Of a stretch of 64,000 bases of DNA, positions 19,259 to 34,442 are shown one piece after another. Where the stretch lies: the NCBI GenBank assembly GCA_947626985.1, contig CANQUG010000002.1:1-64000 (forward strand), written 5' to 3'. Both the position numbers and the translations under genes were made by a program. The stretch is from an uncultured Lachnospiraceae bacterium. GTDB lineage: Bacteria; Bacillota; Clostridia; Lachnospirales; Lachnospiraceae. Positions within the stretch are counted from its first letter, which is position 1. Each line of letters starts with the position of its first letter. Below the pieces are notes generated by a model. It was given only the letters and a program-made list of their open reading frames with translations. It was not told the DNA's origin and searched no databases.

Positions 19259-19300
19259 GACCGGGGAACAAATTTTTCCTGTAAATTTTTTCGCATATTT

Positions 19301-19396
19301 TCCGCAGTTCTCTGCACTTCTCTGCACTTCTCCGCACTTCTCCGCAGTTCTCTGTAGTTCTCTGTAGTTCTCTGTAGTTCTCCGCAGTTCTCCGCA
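19301..19396. repeat. 10-bp tandem array upstream of the gdhA promoter
   Basis: About 9.6 unbroken copies of TCYGYASTTC with an exact 10-base period lie 65-160 bases upstream of the gdhA -10 box. The copies differ only at C/T and C/G positions. One unit per helical turn would place identical faces on one side of the helix. Confidence 0.85.
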
Positions 19397-19441
19397 AAAA
19401 AGCCCCGCGTGAGCCTGCCGGCATCATGCGGGGACTTTTTT
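19395..19441 (-). terminator. Terminator of the cohesin-like/M60 operon
   Basis: Stem CCCCGC/GCGGGG (19403-19408/19428-19433), extended inward by TGA/TCA and GCC/GGC, with a T6 run on each strand side (AAAAAA left, TTTTTT right). It follows the stop codon of the minus-strand FN3 gene by 7 bases. Confidence 0.85.
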
Positions 19442-19447
19442 ATTTTA

Positions 19448-21475
19448 TTATTTTACCTTGACTGCCTTCGCGGCACTGAGGGCGCCGTATACTTTAGTTC
19501 CATCCGGATTCTCGGAATATGCACGTACCTTGTAATAGTATGTCTTTCCGCTCTTCAGATTCTTAGTGTCAGTAAACTTCAGCGTCTTCGCATTGGTGAT
19601 GGTTCCAGCCGCGGTATACTTGCCGTTCTTGGATGTACTTCTGTATACGCGGTAGCCCTTCGCCTTGTCAACCTTCGGCCAGGATATCTGAACCTGAGCT
19701 TTCGCACTGGAAACTGTCGTCGGCTTTTTAGCCTTTGCAGGAGCTGTGGTAGCCTTGATGGTGGCACTGATCTTGCCGTTCACCGGGGTCTTGCCATCCT
19801 CCTTCAGAGCAAACGCACGAACTCTGAAAGCGTAGGTAACGCCGTTCTCCAGGCCGCTGGAAACGTCGTAGGAGGTAACATTTTCTCCTGCAATTCGGTT
19901 CAGAAGTTCATATTTCTTCGTGGACGAATTAAACTTGTAGATCATATAGCCATCTGCTCCGTCCACTTTGCTCCATCCGATATGCACAACCTTAGAGCTG
20001 TTCGTGGAGGAAGCCGTCACGGAAGGTTTCTCGGACTTATTATAGTCATAGAGCATAACGGTGATCTCATCGCCCAGATCTCTATATTCGCTCTTTGCTC
20101 CTTCCACCTTCGTAAATGTCCGAATCTTGAATGTATGTACGCCGCCGAAGCCCGTCATGGCCTTGGTAAAGGACGTCTTATCAGCTCCCTGAATGGTCTT
20201 GATTCTCTTGAACTCTCCGGTAGCTTCATTCTTTACATAGATCACATAACCATCCACATCCGGAACAGATTCCCAGGAAAGGGATACCTTCTTCGTTCCC
20301 AGAACCGGTTCTGCAGATATACCATCTTCAGAAGTTACAGGACCGGGTGTAATGGTGGGCGCCGTCGTCGGTTCCGGCGTCACCGTAGTAGTAGGCTCAG
20401 GAGTCTCCGTCGCTTCCGGTGTCACCGTAGCGGTAGGCTCAGGAGTCGTCGTCGGTTCCGGTGTCGCTGTCAGTTCCGGTGTGGCAGTCGGCGCTGCGGT
20501 GATCGTAGGTTCCGGCCATACCGGAATATCAGTCGGAGTCGGTTCCGGCGTTTCGCCCGGTGTCTCACTCGGTGTCGGTTCCGGTGTCTCGCTCGGCATC
20601 GGTTCTGCTGTCGGTGTAGGCGTCGCTGTTGCTGTCGGAGCCGGTGTAGGCGTTGCTGTCGGTTTTGCTGTCGGTCTCGGTGTTGCTGTTGCTGTCGGCG
20701 TCGCCGAACCCGGTGTAGGCGTCACAACAGGAGGCTCCGGATACTCACTGGGAGTGGGATTCGGATCAATCGACGGACTGGGAGCAGCGCTTGGCGTTGC
20801 TTCCGGAGTCACAGAAGGATCCGGAGTTTTTTCATCCTCAGGCTTCGTATCATCCTGTTCACCAGTATCTCCTCCCGGAATTACCGTTACGCCGGGCGTC
20901 GGCTGTTCTTCTACTTTTTCCTCTTTTCCCACATATACCGGCTGACAGGTAACGTGGGTATGCATCCGCTGCACGCCGACCGATTCCACATAATATACGA
21001 TCGGAAAATCAGAGAATTCGTCCTCCACCGCGTCTTCCGTCACCGCCATTCCTATCTCGGCATAGCAGTCCGCATCCGCACCGGGGTTCACGGTGATCGT
21101 TCCGATCACCGCACTGCCCTCGTCATCCATGAATTCCTGATTTTCTTTTCCGGAAAGAATAATGTCGATCAGGTAGCTGTTCTCCCCCTCTGCCTGGGTG
21201 ACAGCCGCATCCTGCACTACACTGGGGATACCGGTGCTAAATTTGAAGTCCGGCTTCTCCATCGTTCCGCTTATCCGTTCCACATACATCTGGAACCTCA
21301 TAGAGGTAATGTTTCCCGTCTTTCCTTCCGGAAGGGTCATCTTTACTGTCGCATCATAACTTCCTGTCGGTGCTGTAATCTCCACTACGCCGGTTTCCTT
21401 GGCCGATACGGTAAGCGGTGGAAGAACCGTGAGAAGAAGAGATGACGCCACTAAATAATTCATCCATTTTTTCAT
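19448..21475 (-). CDS. Secreted FN3 protein with cohesin-like N terminus and Pro/Thr linker
   Basis: Signal peptide MKKWMNYLVASSLLLTVLPPLTVSA is followed by a strand-rich domain (~26-175: VEITAPTGSYDATVKMTLPEG...YLIDIILSGKENQEF...AVIGTITVNPG...CYAEIGMAV) that resembles cohesin modules in layout. A Pro/Thr linker with ATPTPTP, TPEPT and TVTPEPT repeats covers ~185-370. Three fibronectin type III domains follow (~375-470, 480-575, 580-675), each with a W(E/S/P)xVxxxxGYxxY core. No LPxTG, S-layer or wall-binding motif is seen at the C terminus. It lies 16 bases downstream of the M60 peptidase, which has a dockerin-like module, so it may be its scaffold partner. The cohesin call is an inference; the FN3 domains are clear. 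Confidence 0.8.
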   Translation of the reverse strand: MKKWMNYLVASSLLLTVLPPLTVSAKETGVVEITAPTGSYDATVKMTLPEGKTGNITSMRFQMYVERISGTMEKPDFKFSTGIPSVVQDAAVTQAEGENSYLIDIILSGKENQEFMDDEGSAVIGTITVNPGADADCYAEIGMAVTEDAVEDEFSDFPIVYYVESVGVQRMHTHVTCQPVYVGKEEKVEEQPTPGVTVIPGGDTGEQDDTKPEDEKTPDPSVTPEATPSAAPSPSIDPNPTPSEYPEPPVVTPTPGSATPTATATPRPTAKPTATPTPAPTATATPTPTAEPMPSETPEPTPSETPGETPEPTPTDIPVWPEPTITAAPTATPELTATPEPTTTPEPTATVTPEATETPEPTTTVTPEPTTAPTITPGPVTSEDGISAEPVLGTKKVSLSWESVPDVDGYVIYVKNEATGEFKRIKTIQGADKTSFTKAMTGFGGVHTFKIRTFTKVEGAKSEYRDLGDEITVMLYDYNKSEKPSVTASSTNSSKVVHIGWSKVDGADGYMIYKFNSSTKKYELLNRIAGENVTSYDVSSGLENGVTYAFRVRAFALKEDGKTPVNGKISATIKATTAPAKAKKPTTVSSAKAQVQISWPKVDKAKGYRVYRSTSKNGKYTAAGTITNAKTLKFTDTKNLKSGKTYYYKVRAYSENPDGTKVYGALSAAKAVKVK

Positions 21476-21491
21476 TTCTGCTTTCCCCCTT

Positions 21492-24400
21492 TCAGTCCGC
21501 CGCGCCTGGAATACTGCCGCCCGTCAGAGTAATGCTCGGCAGCACATCCGGCATGTCAAGGAATACCGTATCGCTTACCACACGTTCTCCCTTCATGGTA
21601 TGAGCATCGTCCACACGGTAGAGTTCTCCGCGAACCTTTCCGATCTGTCTGATCACACCCATATCCAGATTCTCAGGCGTCACATAGTAAACCCAACGGC
21701 CGTCCGCGGTTTCACCCAGATCGCCCTGAGCGGGAACTTCCGCCAGAATCACCTGTTCCGCATTCACATTGCCGTCCTTCTGTCCGATCACATCACCGTT
21801 TTCATCGAAAAGAACCACCACATTATAGGCAGGATTTCCTTTGTACTTGCCTACGAATACCAGAGAGTTCGCAGGAATCACGTGGCCATCGCCTTCCGCA
21901 TATTTGTAGTCATCTGTCAGAATTCCTACGGCAGGAATGGAAGACTCCTCAGCAGTAAAGAACTCCATATTATCTCCGGAGGGACCGCACACTTCGATTT
22001 CCTTAATAGAAATTTCTCCCTCGGGAACAGCGATTCCAATCAGCTGAGCGTCATAGGTGCCGATCCACTTGCCCTGATTCTCCGGATCTACCGGGTCGAA
22101 CCAGAGAGTCTCGTCACTGCCGCAGCTGCCGGATTTCACAACCTTCCAGTCATAGGATACCGTGCCGTCCTCAGCGGTAACCACATTTCCTACGGAAACG
22201 ATCACGGAGGAAAGAGGACTTCCCTTATACTTAATGGACGTCACTTCCTTTACGGTCTTCATATCGATCACGATGGAAGCCTCAGCGGAAGCTGTTCCTG
22301 TATATACCATGTCCGGATTACCGTCAATGATCCGGTCAATGGTATGCGGATATTTCTGAACCACGCCGCCGGCCTGCTGGAGATTGTATCCCATATCCGG
22401 ATCATCTTTATCCGGCTGGATGGGCACCAGATCTTCCTGGGATACCATATTCGAAGTCTCCACTGTCCAGTTTTCCTTATTCAGTGCGCCGCCGGTCTCA
22501 ATCTTCACAGATCCCGCGGATGCGCTGTTGGAATAATTCAGAGACTTGTCTACAGCCTTCACTTCGTAATACATCACTCTGTTATTCATAGTGGAAACTT
22601 TATCCACATAGGTCGTCGTCTCGCCGGTGCACTCTGTAAAGCCTACCACTTCCTTAGACAGAACACCGTCTGTATAAGTTCCGCGGATAATCTCATAACC
22701 CAGAATGTTGTCCACAGAAGCCGTTGTCTGAAGAGTCAGAGTCGCATACTGATTCTCTGCCGTCACGCTGGCCTTCACCACATCCTGACCCTTGATTCCC
22801 GTTCCGCCGTGCATTCCTCCGCGGGCATTTTCATTCACATAGTACAGAGCCTTCTCCGTGGGTTCTCCATACAGATTCGCATAAGCCCTCGTGTCTTCGT
22901 CGGGAACCATGCCCCAGCGCTCGAAGAACGGAAGAATATTGGCATTAGCCGCTGCACAGGACAGACGCATCAGATTCTGATCCACACCGTCGTTCTGAGA
23001 AAGAAGATTTACATCTTTTCCGTTTCTTACCACCGTAAGGGATTTCGGCGCTTTGTCCGGATTCCTGCTGTAGGTATCCACACGGGCAAAGAACAGGTTA
23101 TTGAACATGTCATCATACGTGGTAAAGATATTTCTGTCCGCATTACTGTCGAATGCCAAATGGAGCTGCCAGTAGAGAGCCAGCTGTACTGCACCGTTGG
23201 AGGAACGGCCGATCTCTCCCGAAGTTACTTTTTCATATACATCCGGCCACTTGAACCGGAGTCCGTTAGAAGCGCGGGTCAGCAGCTGTGCAAAGTAATT
23301 ATTGGTAATTTCCGCAATCGCATACTTGCCGTCGTTGATGTCATGTCCGATCTCATGAGCAATACCCCATCCGAAGCTGTCCCAGCTGCCGGCGCCGGAG
23401 GCAATGACAGTCTCAGGGAACTCGATTCCGATGTGGTTGCCGGAGGCATACATAAAGGCTCCCGCGAACATTCTCATGTAACGGATATTCAGATGACGGG
23501 CCGACAGCCTGTTGTTACTGCCGTACTTCGTATTGCCGTCCATGTTGGTCAGACCCTTATGCTGATAGAACAGAACCATCGTCTGCTCCATGGCGTCCAG
23601 AGCGGTTTCCAGAGCCGCAGCTTTATCCGCGTCGTCCTTCAGTCCTTCCAGAACCTGAGTCGCCGGAACGGAATACATCATGTGTTCCATCATCAGATCG
23701 GTGGCATTCAGGATACAGAGTCTTTCATTATAATCGTAATTCACACTGCTCTTATTCCTGTGGATCTCATCATGATTCTTCTGAATGGTTCCCACATAGG
23801 CTTCCAGCTCTGTAATATACTTGCTGATCGCATCCTTCTTCTCCTGTCCGGTCTTCTTATAGATATTCAGGACAGGAATCTTCACGCCGCCGCTGATGCG
23901 GACGCCATACTGATCCTCAGAGTTATTTCCGGTATATTCCACATAGACCTGTCCGCCCTTCTCATAAGTAGCGCTCACCCAGGAGGGTACGGTGATAACA
24001 TTCCTGCCTACTTTCAGAGATCTGGTAGAGCTAAGGGCATTGGATTCCGCATGATACTGAGTAAATACGATGTTCAGATCCGCATTGTCTCCTATTTTCT
24101 TGAAGTTATGACCAACGAATACGATAAGCTCCTCACCTGCATAAACAGATCTTCCCAGCGGCTGCCATGCGTTCAGACCGCCGTAGTTCAGCGTTCCGTC
24201 CTTGCGTGCGGTAATGCCAGTCTCCACCTTATAGGTTTCCGTAGTTCCCATGGCAAGAATATCTTCGGCGTTGGTCAGCTCAAGATCCAGATAATCATGC
24301 AGGGGATGCAGTTCTCCGCTCTCCTGGTCCGGTACGTTCAGCTCTGCTCTCAGCTGTTCGATCTGCTCCCTCGTCACTCCTTTCACAAGCTGGCTGTGCA

Positions 24401-27400
24401 TCTCATCCGCATAAAGTGCATAAATCTTACCCTCAATATCCGAATATTTATGGAAATGCATCTCGCCCACCTTCATCTCGATCCTGCTGTATCCAGTACC
24501 CAGGCACATCAGGATTCTCTGGGCTTTCACAGGCTGATGGAACTTGGCGATAAAGTAGGGATGATTGTTGTCATCGGTCCTGCGGATCAGGTCCGCCTTC
24601 ACTTCCTGTCTCTCATCGCCGTGCTCCTTATTCCAGTAATGAATTCTCACAAGCGAGGGCTCACCCTGAAGATTGGCATCCGTAAAGGTAAGATAGCTCA
24701 TCTCATATTCCTTATCCAAGGTCACAGTGATGCCTCTGGCGAAGTTATTGTCGAAATAGGAAATACCATCGTCCCACTCATCATGCTTCAGCCAGTAGGA
24801 GTCATAGTTATTGTCAACCACACCGTAAGCCCAGTGAGTATGCTGAACCTGGGTAGAAGTACCTTCATTGGCTTCATCGATCGGGCTGTTCTGCATGGAT
24901 GCTCCGCCGTGATTTCCATGAAGCGCCTGCAGAATATGCTCGGATACTTCTCCCTTCGCTGTACTCTTATTGATCAGCTGATACTCCGGAAGTCTGGGAA
25001 TCTCGCCGCTGGTGGTTGTCGCCTCCTGCGTTCCGGAAGGTACGCCCCATCCGAGAGAGTTCCATCCTATTACATAAATATAATAGGAGACTCCGTCTTT
25101 CAGTTTGGAAATTGTATAGCTGTTAGAGGTAAGCATGCCTCTGCTGACAAGCTGTTCGTTGACAGTTTCGCCCTTGTCGGTGCGCGTATCGGTATCCAGC
25201 ATCTGGAAACCTTCCACAACAGGCATAAAGCTGTCGTCTGCCGGCGGAGCCGTGCCCTCATCCTCGGGTGTCGCCTCTCTGTAGTACAGCATATACCCTT
25301 CCGCGTCATCCATCATCTTCCAGGTTACATTCACTGCCCGGTATGCGCCCTTGGCCGCCACATTATCCGGAGCCGCCGGCTTGCTCGTAGGCGCAGGAGT
25401 TACCGTGATCGCTTCCGACCATGGGCTGGTCCAGTCGCCGTTCACGGAACGAATCTTCACCGTGTACCCCTTGAAGTTCACAATAGGCTTGTCATTGATC
25501 ATGGTCACCAGATGAGGTGACTCCTGCACACGCACGATCTGAGTCTGTACACCATTCTCCTTCTTAACGGGACCGGAAATGAACAGATCGTAGCCTGTTA
25601 CATTACTCTCAGCTTTCCAGTGAATGGTAAACTCTTCATTATTGATACTTTTGCTGATGGCATCCATGTCGAACTTCGGTATGTTAAGCTCCGGCGCAGG
25701 AATTCTCTTATCCATGTCATTGACGAATTCCACCTTGGCAATGTCCGCCAGCTTTTGATTCTTCTTGGTTCCTGTGATGGTGATGCTTACTTTCTTTACA
25801 GCCACCTGCGTACCGAAATCCACTACCAGGGAACCGTCCGCATCCACTTTTACAGAGGGCTTCTGGTCCGCATAAACAGTGGTCTGAGGCAGGAGAACCG
25901 ACGCCATGAACGCAAATACCGGAGCACTGATCATGTCTTCCTCTGCTTCGGGCGCATCGAAAAGCTCTGCGGCATCATCCGGATTTTCGGTTTCTTCTCC
26001 CGTTTCTCCTGTGACGGGCTCCTCCCCGATTACCTCATTCTGAACGACTGAATCTGCAGGAACCGTTTCTTCCGAAAGATCTGCCTCTCCGGCAGACTCC
26101 TCCGCTGCTGAGTCTTCTGCGGGCGAACCGGTGAACAGATCCACAGAAGCAGGCCCTGTCAGCTGTTCTGCGGACCCCCCGGAACCTTCTGATTGGGTAT
26201 CGCCTATACTGATGCGCCCCACCGCGTCTTCTCCGGCGGAATTCACATATGTATACTCTATGTATCCGCTGGAAATATCGCTGGTGAGATTTCCAACCTC
26301 ATCAACAGCGACAGGCGTCTCAATAGTAATTCCTTCGATCTTCGGCACATCCTCAGGAGCCGCATTTTCCGCAGCAAGAGCAAAGCCGATCTCTACCGGA
26401 TTCGACTCGGAAATGACTTCGTCTTTCGCCGGCTGCAGCGTAAGGCTTTCCTCGCCTTTCAGGACGCCTTCCACAGTTCCGCCTGCAATATGGGTGGTTT
26501 CCGGAACGGTAACCATCTCCTTCGACGGTACGAAGGATTCCGCAATAGTGGAAATCTGGTTCTCATTAATGCTCTGCACCAGATACTGCAGATCGGAAAG
26601 GTCCACCTCCTCCGTGAAGTCCATACCATCCGGAGTGTTTACACCCATGGTAAGGTTTGCGGAAGCATCAAACTCGCCGGAACGAATCACATCCAGCATT
26701 TTAGTGATATCGTTGTTATTGATGGCCTTGTCCCCGTTCACATCTCCCAGACGGATCCATCCGGGATTCGCATTCGTTCCGGTGTTCATCCTGGCGGAAG
26801 CCACTTCGATCTTGTGAGTGGTATTTTGGGCTACCGTAATCTCCTGAGTATAATCGGCAAACTTTGCAGCAGAAATTGTAACCGTATAGTTTCCTGCCGG
26901 CAGATCGTCAAAATCCGCCACAGCGGTCGCCGTCTTGCCGGAAACCCGGAGTATCTTCGGTGTATGTCCGCTTCCAATAGACACAGTTACGTTAATCGCG
27001 TCACCATCCTGATCCACATACTCAAAGGGCAGCATGGAGATCACTTTTACCTCGATGGAACCCGTTCCCGTACTCTCGGAGAATAGTTCTCCCTCACCGG
27101 AAATCTCTGCTTCCTCGTCTCCGAACAGTTCTTCGTTCCCGGGCGCAGGCGTCTCCTCCGGCGGGATTTCCTCAGGAACGACTGCTTCCCCAGGCGTCTC
27201 CGTCGGTGGAATCTCCTCAGGTACAACCACTTCCTCCGGATTCTCCTGCGGTGTCACCTCAGGCGGGACCTCCCCGGGAACTTCCGGCGACGGGATTGTC
27301 TCTGCCGCGCCTGCGTCAGGCGCAGACACATCGCCGAAATCCGCTGCCTGATCCATCGGCCCGGCAGCTTCCCCATTCTCCTCCGGCACAGGCGCGTCGC

Positions 27401-27506
27401 TCTCTATTCCGGAAGAAAAGTCGGCTCCCCACACTGCTGCTCCGGCCCCGGTTACCGGCTGGAGAATCAAGCATCCTGTGAGCAAAATAGCCATTAGTCT
27501 TTTCAT
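21492..27506 (-). CDS. Giant secreted M60-family (enhancin-like) metallopeptidase with dockerin-like module
   Basis: Zinc peptidase of the M60 family, whose members cleave mucin-type glycoproteins. Order: signal peptide (1-25), Pro/Glu-rich stretch (30-135), a PEGA-like beta domain (~150-235), a dockerin-like pair of Ca-binding repeats (GDVNGDKAINNNDITKMLDVI ~252, EEVDLSDLQYLVQSI ~300), a low-complexity acidic region (to ~540), FN3 domains (~615-830) and a discoidin-like domain (~885-985). The M60 catalytic domain has HEIGH at 1384-1388 and a Glu ten residues later (gluzincin pattern), followed by FN3 and a second galactose-binding-like domain (~1720-1830). At 2004 aa it is the largest protein here. 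It has no wall anchor. It is first in a two-gene operon with the FN3/cohesin-like protein. Confidence 0.92.
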   Translation of the reverse strand: MKRLMAILLTGCLILQPVTGAGAAVWGADFSSGIESDAPVPEENGEAAGPMDQAADFGDVSAPDAGAAETIPSPEVPGEVPPEVTPQENPEEVVVPEEIPPTETPGEAVVPEEIPPEETPAPGNEELFGDEEAEISGEGELFSESTGTGSIEVKVISMLPFEYVDQDGDAINVTVSIGSGHTPKILRVSGKTATAVADFDDLPAGNYTVTISAAKFADYTQEITVAQNTTHKIEVASARMNTGTNANPGWIRLGDVNGDKAINNNDITKMLDVIRSGEFDASANLTMGVNTPDGMDFTEEVDLSDLQYLVQSINENQISTIAESFVPSKEMVTVPETTHIAGGTVEGVLKGEESLTLQPAKDEVISESNPVEIGFALAAENAAPEDVPKIEGITIETPVAVDEVGNLTSDISSGYIEYTYVNSAGEDAVGRISIGDTQSEGSGGSAEQLTGPASVDLFTGSPAEDSAAEESAGEADLSEETVPADSVVQNEVIGEEPVTGETGEETENPDDAAELFDAPEAEEDMISAPVFAFMASVLLPQTTVYADQKPSVKVDADGSLVVDFGTQVAVKKVSITITGTKKNQKLADIAKVEFVNDMDKRIPAPELNIPKFDMDAISKSINNEEFTIHWKAESNVTGYDLFISGPVKKENGVQTQIVRVQESPHLVTMINDKPIVNFKGYTVKIRSVNGDWTSPWSEAITVTPAPTSKPAAPDNVAAKGAYRAVNVTWKMMDDAEGYMLYYREATPEDEGTAPPADDSFMPVVEGFQMLDTDTRTDKGETVNEQLVSRGMLTSNSYTISKLKDGVSYYIYVIGWNSLGWGVPSGTQEATTTSGEIPRLPEYQLINKSTAKGEVSEHILQALHGNHGGASMQNSPIDEANEGTSTQVQHTHWAYGVVDNNYDSYWLKHDEWDDGISYFDNNFARGITVTLDKEYEMSYLTFTDANLQGEPSLVRIHYWNKEHGDERQEVKADLIRRTDDNNHPYFIAKFHQPVKAQRILMCLGTGYSRIEMKVGEMHFHKYSDIEGKIYALYADEMHSQLVKGVTREQIEQLRAELNVPDQESGELHPLHDYLDLELTNAEDILAMGTTETYKVETGITARKDGTLNYGGLNAWQPLGRSVYAGEELIVFVGHNFKKIGDNADLNIVFTQYHAESNALSSTRSLKVGRNVITVPSWVSATYEKGGQVYVEYTGNNSEDQYGVRISGGVKIPVLNIYKKTGQEKKDAISKYITELEAYVGTIQKNHDEIHRNKSSVNYDYNERLCILNATDLMMEHMMYSVPATQVLEGLKDDADKAAALETALDAMEQTMVLFYQHKGLTNMDGNTKYGSNNRLSARHLNIRYMRMFAGAFMYASGNHIGIEFPETVIASGAGSWDSFGWGIAHEIGHDINDGKYAIAEITNNYFAQLLTRASNGLRFKWPDVYEKVTSGEIGRSSNGAVQLALYWQLHLAFDSNADRNIFTTYDDMFNNLFFARVDTYSRNPDKAPKSLTVVRNGKDVNLLSQNDGVDQNLMRLSCAAANANILPFFERWGMVPDEDTRAYANLYGEPTEKALYYVNENARGGMHGGTGIKGQDVVKASVTAENQYATLTLQTTASVDNILGYEIIRGTYTDGVLSKEVVGFTECTGETTTYVDKVSTMNNRVMYYEVKAVDKSLNYSNSASAGSVKIETGGALNKENWTVETSNMVSQEDLVPIQPDKDDPDMGYNLQQAGGVVQKYPHTIDRIIDGNPDMVYTGTASAEASIVIDMKTVKEVTSIKYKGSPLSSVIVSVGNVVTAEDGTVSYDWKVVKSGSCGSDETLWFDPVDPENQGKWIGTYDAQLIGIAVPEGEISIKEIEVCGPSGDNMEFFTAEESSIPAVGILTDDYKYAEGDGHVIPANSLVFVGKYKGNPAYNVVVLFDENGDVIGQKDGNVNAEQVILAEVPAQGDLGETADGRWVYYVTPENLDMGVIRQIGKVRGELYRVDDAHTMKGERVVSDTVFLDMPDVLPSITLTGGSIPGAAD

Positions 27507-32699: not shown

Positions 32700-33926
32700 T
32701 TATTTTGCACTGATTTTATGATATTTTTTCTTTCCGCGGCGAACCACCCGGCTGTTTGCCAGAAGATCCTCCCTGGAAAGGGTGTATGCGAAATCCGTAA
32801 TTTTCTCTCCGTCCAGAGTCACGCCGCCCTGGGTGATGGCCCTGCGGCCTTCGGAGCGGGTGGGTACCAGGCCCGTCTTCACCAGCACGGTGATGAGGTC
32901 GATGGCGCCATCCGTAAACTCGTCCTCGCCAAACTCTGTGGAGGGCATGTTTTCGGTGTCCGCGCCTCCCGCAAAAAGCGCCCGCGCTCCTTCCTGAGCC
33001 TTCTTCGCCTCTTCCTCGCCGTGCACCAGCTTCGTCAGTTCATAAGCCAGGATTTCCTTGGCCTTATTCAGATCGCTGCCTTCCCATTTCGCCATCTCCT
33101 CAATCTCCTCCAGGGGAAGGAAAGTGAGAAGACGCATGCACTTGATCACGTCGGCGTCGTCCACGTTTCTCCAGTACTGGTAGAAATCGAAGGGGGAAGT
33201 CTTATCGGGATCCAGCCATACGGCTCCGGCCTGGGTCTTGCCCATCTTCTTTCCCTCGGAATTCAGAAGAAGGGTAATGGTCATGGCGTATGCGTCCTTG
33301 CCCAGCTTGCGGCGGATGAGCTCCGTTCCGCCCAGCATGTTGCTCCACTGGTCGTCGCCGCCGAACTGCATGTTGCAGCCGTATTTCTGGAACAGCATGT
33401 AGAAGTCGTAGCTCTGCATGATCATGTAGTTAAACTCCAGGAAGCTCAAGCCACGCTCCATCCTCTGCTTGTAGCACTCTGCCGTAAGCATACGGTTTAC
33501 GGAGAAATGGGGGCCGACCTCCCGAAGAAGCTCCACGTAGTTCAGGTTCATAAGCCAGTCCGCGTTGTTCACCATAAGGGCCTTTCCGTCGGAAAAATCG
33601 ATAAAACGCTCCATCTGCTTCTTGAAGCACTCGATATTGTGCTGGATTGTCTCCACGGTCATCATCTGACGCATATCCGTTCTGCCGGAGGGATCGCCGA
33701 TCATGCCGGTACCGCCGCCCAGCAGGGCGATAGGCCGGTTGCCCGCCATCTGGAGACGCTTCATCAGGCACAGGGCCATGAAATGTCCCACATGAAGGCT
33801 GTCCGCCGTGGGGTCAAAGCCGATATAGAAGGTGGCTTTTCCCTGATTGACAATCTCGCTGATCTCCTTCTCGTCTGTTACCTGGGCAATCAGACCTCTT
33901 GCCTTCAGTTCTTCCCAAAGTGTCAT
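32700..33926 (-). CDS. tyrS: Tyrosyl-tRNA synthetase
   Basis: Charges tRNA-Tyr. Start ATG 33926 ([18 protein letters not shown]) follows GGAGGAAAAAAAC and yields 408 aa, as expected; the track's N-terminal extension is leader RNA. Motifs: the HIGH-type site in [13 protein letters not shown] (~45), [14 protein letters not shown] (~190) and the KMSKS-type loop in the form KKMGKT (~230). A C-terminal S4 RNA-binding domain spans ~345-405 ([19 protein letters not shown]). Expression is controlled by the T-box leader just upstream, whose specifier codon is UAC. Confidence 0.97.
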
Positions 33927-34048
33927 GTTTTTTTCCTCCATCCATATAATATACTTCCGGCTGCGCTTTTCCATAACCCTGTCGTTCACCCCCTGCCGCC
34001 AGACTTCAGATATCCCCGGCAGGTATGCTTCTTTACAGACGCTCAGCC

Positions 34049-34442
34049 TAAAAAAATGCCCGGTTCCTGTCCTTTTAGGACGAGAACCGGGTCCCGTGAT
34101 ACCACCTAAATTCACAGAAGACTCGCGCCTTCTGTCTCAGCAAGTGACGATATTCTCCCCAATCTTCCTTATGAAATATCGGACAGCACAGCATCACTCC
34201 GGCAGGATAACGGTCGCCGTTCCGTCGCAGCCTACTGTTCTTTCGGTGCGCAGCTCCGGGATGTATTCACTCAGGTTCCACAGGCGCCTCTCACCGGCCG
34301 GCAGCTCTCTGTCCGCTTTCCCTGAACTACTTCTTCCCTTCCAGGCCTTTTTCTTATAGATGATCCAGTGGCCGGAAGCCGCCTCTCCTCCCCGTGTCCG
34401 GACAGAAACGGCAGACTTCTCCATGAAGATCATAAAACATAT
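34049..34442 (-). promoter_or_regulatory. Tyrosine T-box riboswitch leader of tyrS
   Basis: Senses uncharged tRNA-Tyr. In transcript order: stem I with GGTGAGAGG and the loop GAGTGAATACATC carrying specifier UAC (34265-34263); the T-box AATTTAGGTGGTATCACGGG (about 34114-34095); and the terminator CCCGGTTCTCGTCC...GGAACCGGG with a T7 tract (34091-34050). Uncharged tRNA-Tyr should stabilise the antiterminator and switch on tyrS. The 33927-34552 gap is otherwise only its promoter and an AT-rich spacer. Confidence 0.95.

Follow-up and report, generated by a model that had tools for sequence, protein, structure and literature searches.

The window analysed here is a stretch of 64,000 nucleotides (nt) from an uncultured Lachnospiraceae bacterium, and this report concerns two adjoining genes on its reverse strand. 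The first encodes a 2004-amino-acid (aa) M60 peptidase with an X-dockerin, that is, an X module followed by a dockerin, near its N-terminus. The second encodes a secreted protein, here called the partner, whose first domain has a predicted cohesin fold. In our view the products of the two genes are a pair dedicated to docking with each other, in which the C-terminal module of the partner holds the M60 peptidase at the cell envelope, and we put the probability of this at about 75%. The features of the locus are as follows.

21492..27506, reverse strand: M60 peptidase gene, 2004 aa, first of the pair (open reading frame and Pfam)
26757..27071, reverse strand: X-like (Ig/PEGA-like) module, M60 residues ~146–250, matched, jointly with the dockerin, by full-length X-dockerin chains
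26553..26750, reverse strand: dockerin, M60 residues ~253–318, with a canonical loop 1 (DVNGDKAINNND) and a non-canonical loop 2
22911..23696, reverse strand: Peptidase_M60 domain, residues 1271–1532, Pfam PF13402 (E 3e-10, above cut-off)
23343..23357, reverse strand: zinc motif HEIGH, residues 1384–1388
22131..22343, reverse strand: F5/8 type C (F5/8C; CBM32-like) domain, residues 1722–1792 (Pfam)
19448..21475, reverse strand: partner (FN3) gene, 675 aa, second of the pair (open reading frame call)
20930..21400, reverse strand: cohesin-fold domain, partner residues 26–182 (predicted fold and conserved family)
20321..20929, reverse strand: acidic Pro/Thr-rich linker, partner residues 183–385, 52% Pro plus Thr
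19451..20320, reverse strand: three FN3-type repeats, partner residues 386–675, proposed wall-association module
19396..19441, reverse strand: strong intrinsic terminator directly past the partner stop, with a GC-rich stem, an A-run before it and a T-run after it

The stop of the M60 gene and the start of the partner gene are separated by 16 nt (21476–21491), and a purine-rich ribosome-binding site precedes the partner gene. This ribosome-binding site and the strong terminator indicate that the M60 and partner genes form a two-gene unit. More than 400 nt lie between the pair and the upstream cardiolipin-synthase-like gene and more than 260 nt between the pair and the downstream glutamate-dehydrogenase-like gene. 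A promoter search at the pair gave nothing above chance. A preliminary description of this DNA had proposed two adjoining genes 16 bases apart with the M60 peptidase first, a HEIGH motif with a Glu in the peptidase, a long Pro/Thr linker leading to three FN3 domains in the second protein, and no wall anchor in either. All of these points were borne out: both open reading frames lie at the positions listed above, PF13402 matches with its HExxH motif and downstream Glu (HEIGHDINDGKYAIAE), the FN3-type repeats behind the linker were found by Pfam, and neither protein has a recognised anchor.

The M60 protein consists of an N-terminal signal peptide, an acidic Pro/Glu linker, the X-dockerin, FN3-like domains, the catalytic domain and the F5/8C domain, in that order, and Pfam also finds fn3 and a PEGA-like domain (200–235). 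No transmembrane, LPXTG or SLH signal was seen at its C-terminus. A lipobox reading of the signal peptide (LLTGC) was set aside, as the Cys is missing in several relatives. Relatives of the M60 domain in the PDB include F5/8C-domain M60 proteins and the glycopeptidases ZmpC and BcM60K. Because the M60 relatives of solved structure are glycopeptidases, O-glycoproteins, such as mucin, are the likely substrate.

Within the M60 protein, GDVNGDKAINNNDI begins at residue 254. By itself the window dockerin is matched by Pfam in its first loop alone and below the cut-off (E 0.03). Conservation of the region extends to 32 of the 397 family genomes sampled. Homologous loci were gathered with the M60 catalytic domain as query. 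Dockerin_1 (PF00404) matched 30 of 32 homologous regions (best 5.5e-10) and the family profile matches solved dockerins (E 1e-7) and scaffoldin X-dockerins, so the dockerin is real. Profile matches to 4wi0 and 4u3s span the X module and the dockerin. An AlphaFold model of M60 residues 146–333 consists of an Ig-like domain and then a dockerin (predicted local distance difference test, pLDDT, 88.5), and the best ten PDB fold matches of this model were all chains that contain a type II X-dockerin (E 2e-6 to 3e-4), with most of the model aligned. A chance resemblance to the dockerin motif was ruled out by this fold match and by the conservation in the family. Both fold and profile place the Ig-like X module directly before the dockerin, packed with it as one unit. 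The family has the two repeats of a dockerin, and both loop motifs are present in 72 of 93 X-dockerins. The preliminary description had proposed a dockerin-like double repeat near residues 252–315. The dockerin stands, on the evidence of family profile and fold, but its second repeat has no canonical calcium loop, and it is not a lone dockerin but part of an X-module and dockerin dyad of type II, the kind used for cell-surface attachment. This X-dockerin is the only one in the window genome, where other dockerins score below the threshold. In 31 relatives all full-length X-dockerins are at M60 loci, and the remaining matches are partial generic dockerins.

The fold of partner residues 26–182 was predicted with confidence (pLDDT 90.9; predicted template-modelling score, pTM, 0.85). 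Cohesins made up 22 of its 23 top PDB fold matches, with probability 1.00, and a cohesin-like module of C. perfringens was among them, while adhesins appeared lower down in the list. The predicted fold is thus that of cohesins, a nine-stranded beta jelly roll, in agreement with the cohesin-like domain first proposed for residues 26–175; the outcome that was to refute that proposal, a different fold of these residues, did not occur. No sequence relatives of the domain were found in Pfam or among PDB sequences by phmmer and profile search, and the Pfam cohesin model (PF00963) matched none of 30 members of the domain family. The domain is therefore called cohesin-fold here and not a member of Pfam Cohesin, since its fold is confident and sequence similarity is absent. 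Pfam misses it because its similarity to known cohesin sequences is undetectable, and this cohesin-fold socket of an M60 partner is previously unrecognised. The window genome contains exactly one such domain, and no Pfam cohesin was found in it.

An M60 gene followed by a gene for a secreted protein with the cohesin-fold domain was seen across many Lachnospiraceae genera and in some Oscillospiraceae. Among the 397 family genomes, the cohesin-fold domain was detected in 34 and M60 in 41, of which 33 were shared (Fisher 1.9e-39). The match in the 34th genome (G270) was a false positive inside a 786-aa HypF-like protein. The domain is exclusive to M60 loci: 32 of 35 matches are 1.4–1.7 kb past an M60 domain on the same strand, and of the other three, one falls at a contig break (G042), one belongs to an M60 whose zinc motif is degenerate (G281), and one is the HypF-like false positive. 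Unfused pairs were on the same strand in 97 of 97 cases, most of them within tens of bases; some of the 97 came from overlapping collections, and the divergence test described below used 93 distinct M60 catalytic domains. The partner accompanied the X-dockerin. It was detected by profile beside 36 of 38 M60s with an X-dockerin, the other two having a secreted neighbour in its place, and beside none of the four M60s without one (G054, G100, G110 and G140; p = 1.3e-4). Of these four M60s without an X-dockerin, one (L170) has a transmembrane tail and one (L172) a basic FN3 tail of its own. Five M60s that seemed to lack a partner (L122, L124, L142, L151 and L177) were artefacts of the open reading frame filter, and the partner is present. 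At L069, L138 and L173, the secreted neighbour beside the M60 is too divergent for the profile.

In the 93 pairs, distances between cohesin-fold domains and distances between X-dockerins correlate at 0.79. With the catalytic-domain distance removed, the partial r was 0.58 (permutation p 0.002, in a test that leaves shared ancestry partly in). This correlated divergence supports, but does not prove, binding between the X-dockerin and the cohesin-fold domain. Natural fusions put both in one protein at L046, L062 and L144. At these three loci and at L178, a fusion whose N-terminus is cut off by the contig end, the cohesin-fold domain lies near the C-terminal end of the M60 protein and is followed by a second, classical dockerin.

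The modules behind the cohesin-fold domain vary: 45 partners have FN3, 39 a transmembrane segment (2 with LPXTG), at least 5 wall-binding repeats, and 4 domains are fused to M60. Because these modules sit there, the segment of the partner past the socket would mostly be an attachment device. The FN3 tail takes the same position as recognisable anchors in homologous partners. In the window it has a net charge of +23, and its last repeat has a charge of +18 and a pI of 10.2. FN3 repeats similar to those of the partner are present in other proteins of the window genome, and the charge of the tail together with this recurrence suggests that it may bind the wall. A 1848-aa protein of the same genome (L181; G000:C6:74435-75277) also ends in FN3 repeats, the last of which is 88% identical to the last of the partner. 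This likeness suggests a recent exchange or duplication of the module.

The preliminary description took the lack of wall anchors to mean a free-secreted complex. In such a complex the docked proteins would be diffusible, and the FN3 repeats would be spacers or binders of mucin or glycan instead of an anchor. Transmembrane, LPXTG and SLH signals are absent from both window proteins and FN3 repeats are only putative wall binders, which fits a diffusible complex. However, about half of the homologous operons have a partner that ends in a recognisable envelope anchor, be it a transmembrane tail, wall-binding repeats or LPXTG, and in the window a strongly basic FN3 tail replaces these anchors at the same position. 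We therefore regard free secretion as unlikely, although it survives best among the alternatives.

Our data are more consistent with a docking pair at the envelope. The M60 peptidase would be secreted and would dock, through its N-terminal X-dockerin, with the only cohesin-fold domain of the partner, which is made together with it. The C-terminal module of the partner, which by species is a transmembrane tail, wall-binding repeats or basic FN3, would then keep the M60 peptidase at the envelope. A mucin-type peptidase held in this way would act at the bacterial surface and release its products beside the cell. The computations show the two folds, the conservation of the gene arrangement, the restriction of the domain to M60 loci and the variety of attachment modules, whereas physical binding, dependence on calcium, retention at the surface in the window species and O-glycoproteins or mucin as substrate are what we infer. 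The matched pair of a dockerin-bearing M60 peptidase and a cohesin-fold partner, as first proposed, has good support from fold prediction, gene linkage, co-occurrence, fusions and correlated divergence, but its lone dockerin and its free secretion need changing.

Several points weigh against the docking pair, apart from the missing anchor signals and the shared ancestry left in the permutation test. TM-scores of the partner domain to cohesins were only ~0.4–0.6. Comparison with 19 genuine cohesins by hhalign gave a probability of ~1% and no profile similarity, so the domain could be a beta-sandwich that arose by convergence. The second repeat of the window dockerin (NLTMGVNTPDGMDFTEEVDLSDL) has ~10 extra residues, lacks the first ligands and forms a non-canonical calcium loop, although the helix of loop 2 is predicted. 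Loop 2 is non-canonical in L077, L085, L090 and L091 too, which makes a trait of the lineage more likely than a fault in the assembly.

The first domain of the partner might instead be a beta-sandwich adhesin or a carbohydrate-binding module. The X-dockerin would then bind elsewhere or be a structural, calcium-stabilised module, and the linkage of the two genes would result from a shared role on mucin. This is less probable than free secretion. Jelly-roll folds are common to many binding modules, adhesins do occur lower in the fold list, the domain has no sequence similarity to cohesins, and separate classical cohesins in some relatives might take the dockerin. But cohesins outrank other jelly rolls almost without exception in the fold search, and Pfam finds no cohesin at all in the window genome. 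The partner is always absent where the M60 has no X-dockerin, and the M60 X-dockerin differs from generic dockerins and occurs only at M60 loci. The natural fusions and the correlated divergence also argue for docking between the two. Membership of the pair in a larger, mucinolysome-like multi-enzyme scaffold, with the M60 as one of many dockerin enzymes, is improbable: mucinolysomes are known from Limousia (PMC12997984), generic dockerin proteins are numerous in some relatives, which also have classical cohesins, and the four fused M60s have a second, classical dockerin as their last domain, but the partner has a single socket and the window genome, in which the X-dockerin and the cohesin-fold domain each occur once, Pfam cohesins are absent and other dockerins stay below the threshold, lacks a multi-cohesin scaffoldin serving several dockerin enzymes.

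The proposed arrangement would be the type II cohesin/X-dockerin tether of cellulosomes cut down to one enzyme and one anchor. In the scaffoldins of C. thermocellum and Acetivibrio cellulolyticus (PMC5141474), as here, an X module is right before the dockerin and the cohesin is on a separate, envelope-anchored protein, with the same pair of folds. In contrast to cellulosome attachment, the X-dockerin described here is N-terminal and on an enzyme, not a scaffoldin; there is one socket for one client; the cohesin fold is unrecognisable by sequence; and what docks is an M60 peptidase instead of a cellulase scaffold. The complexes that secreted glycoside hydrolases of C. perfringens form through X82 cohesin and dockerin (2jh2; PMC12997984) likewise have single cohesin-like modules outside cellulosomes and enzymes that act on host glycoproteins, and the cohesin-like module of this species is among the best fold matches of the partner domain. 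Their cohesin is on a glycoside hydrolase and joins enzymes, whereas the one described here belongs to a non-catalytic protein that has a tail for attachment. The mucinolysome of Limousia, which was described in 2026 with the help of the Pfam models for cohesin and dockerin (PMC12997984), resembles the proposed pair in that gut bacteria break down mucin with a cohesin–dockerin assembly, which includes a scaffoldin for anchoring and peptidases with dockerins. It consists of multi-cohesin scaffoldins with many glycosidases in Acutalibacteraceae, whereas the system here is a two-protein pair in many Lachnospiraceae genera and some Oscillospiraceae, with a cohesin that Pfam models miss. Neither M60 nor Lachnospiraceae is mentioned in the main text of that study. 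The M60 mucinases and O-glycopeptidases BT4244, AM0627, ZmpA–C of C. perfringens and BcM60K of B. caccae share with the window enzyme an M60 domain with HExxH, F5/8C (CBM32-like) and FN3-like domains. A full-text search of open-licence papers found no report of a dockerin on such an enzyme, or of such a pair.

With this pair, the reach of cohesin–dockerin docking would widen to dedicated peptidase systems of two proteins in the Lachnospiraceae, which are a dominant family of the gut. Standard sequence models of surveys such as the 2026 mucinolysome study can miss cohesin sockets entirely. The pair also offers a direct and testable answer to how these bacteria could retain a mucin-type peptidase of such great size at the surface when the enzyme has no sortase or lipid anchor, and it is a candidate for a new orthogonal plug–socket pair in protein engineering. 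More speculatively, the domain may represent a separate, sequence-invisible cohesin family that evolved to display one class of enzyme at the surface in plug-in fashion, the socket being joined to whatever attachment module the lineage has. Because L046, L062 and L144 also have the N-terminal X-dockerin, formation of rings or polymers is possible for them. Such a fused protein could either dock with itself or link up with others head-to-tail to give mucinase polymers, and its second, classical dockerin could fasten it to a larger scaffold. We hold this wider proposal only tentatively.

Some further observations were made in the relatives and in the window. The second M60 of genome G281 (L058; G281:C35) has AHVIGH in place of HEIGH, and keeps the X-dockerin and a partner with a cohesin-fold domain and a transmembrane anchor; by its sequence it is likely to be inactive yet still docked at the surface. 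In several Lachnospiraceae genomes (G157, G255, G220 and G098), generic dockerin proteins are numerous and Pfam cohesins few or absent, a hint that more cohesin families have gone unrecognised. Between the partner terminator and the next gene, positions 19290–19395 of the reverse strand contain ~10 tandem copies of a 10-nt unit (GAGAACTGCG / GAGAACTACA). Elsewhere in the window, a T-box leader (Rfam RF00230; 34073–34352, reverse strand) overlaps the first-ATG/GTG start of the open reading frame at 32700–34115, so the true start of this frame is probably further downstream.

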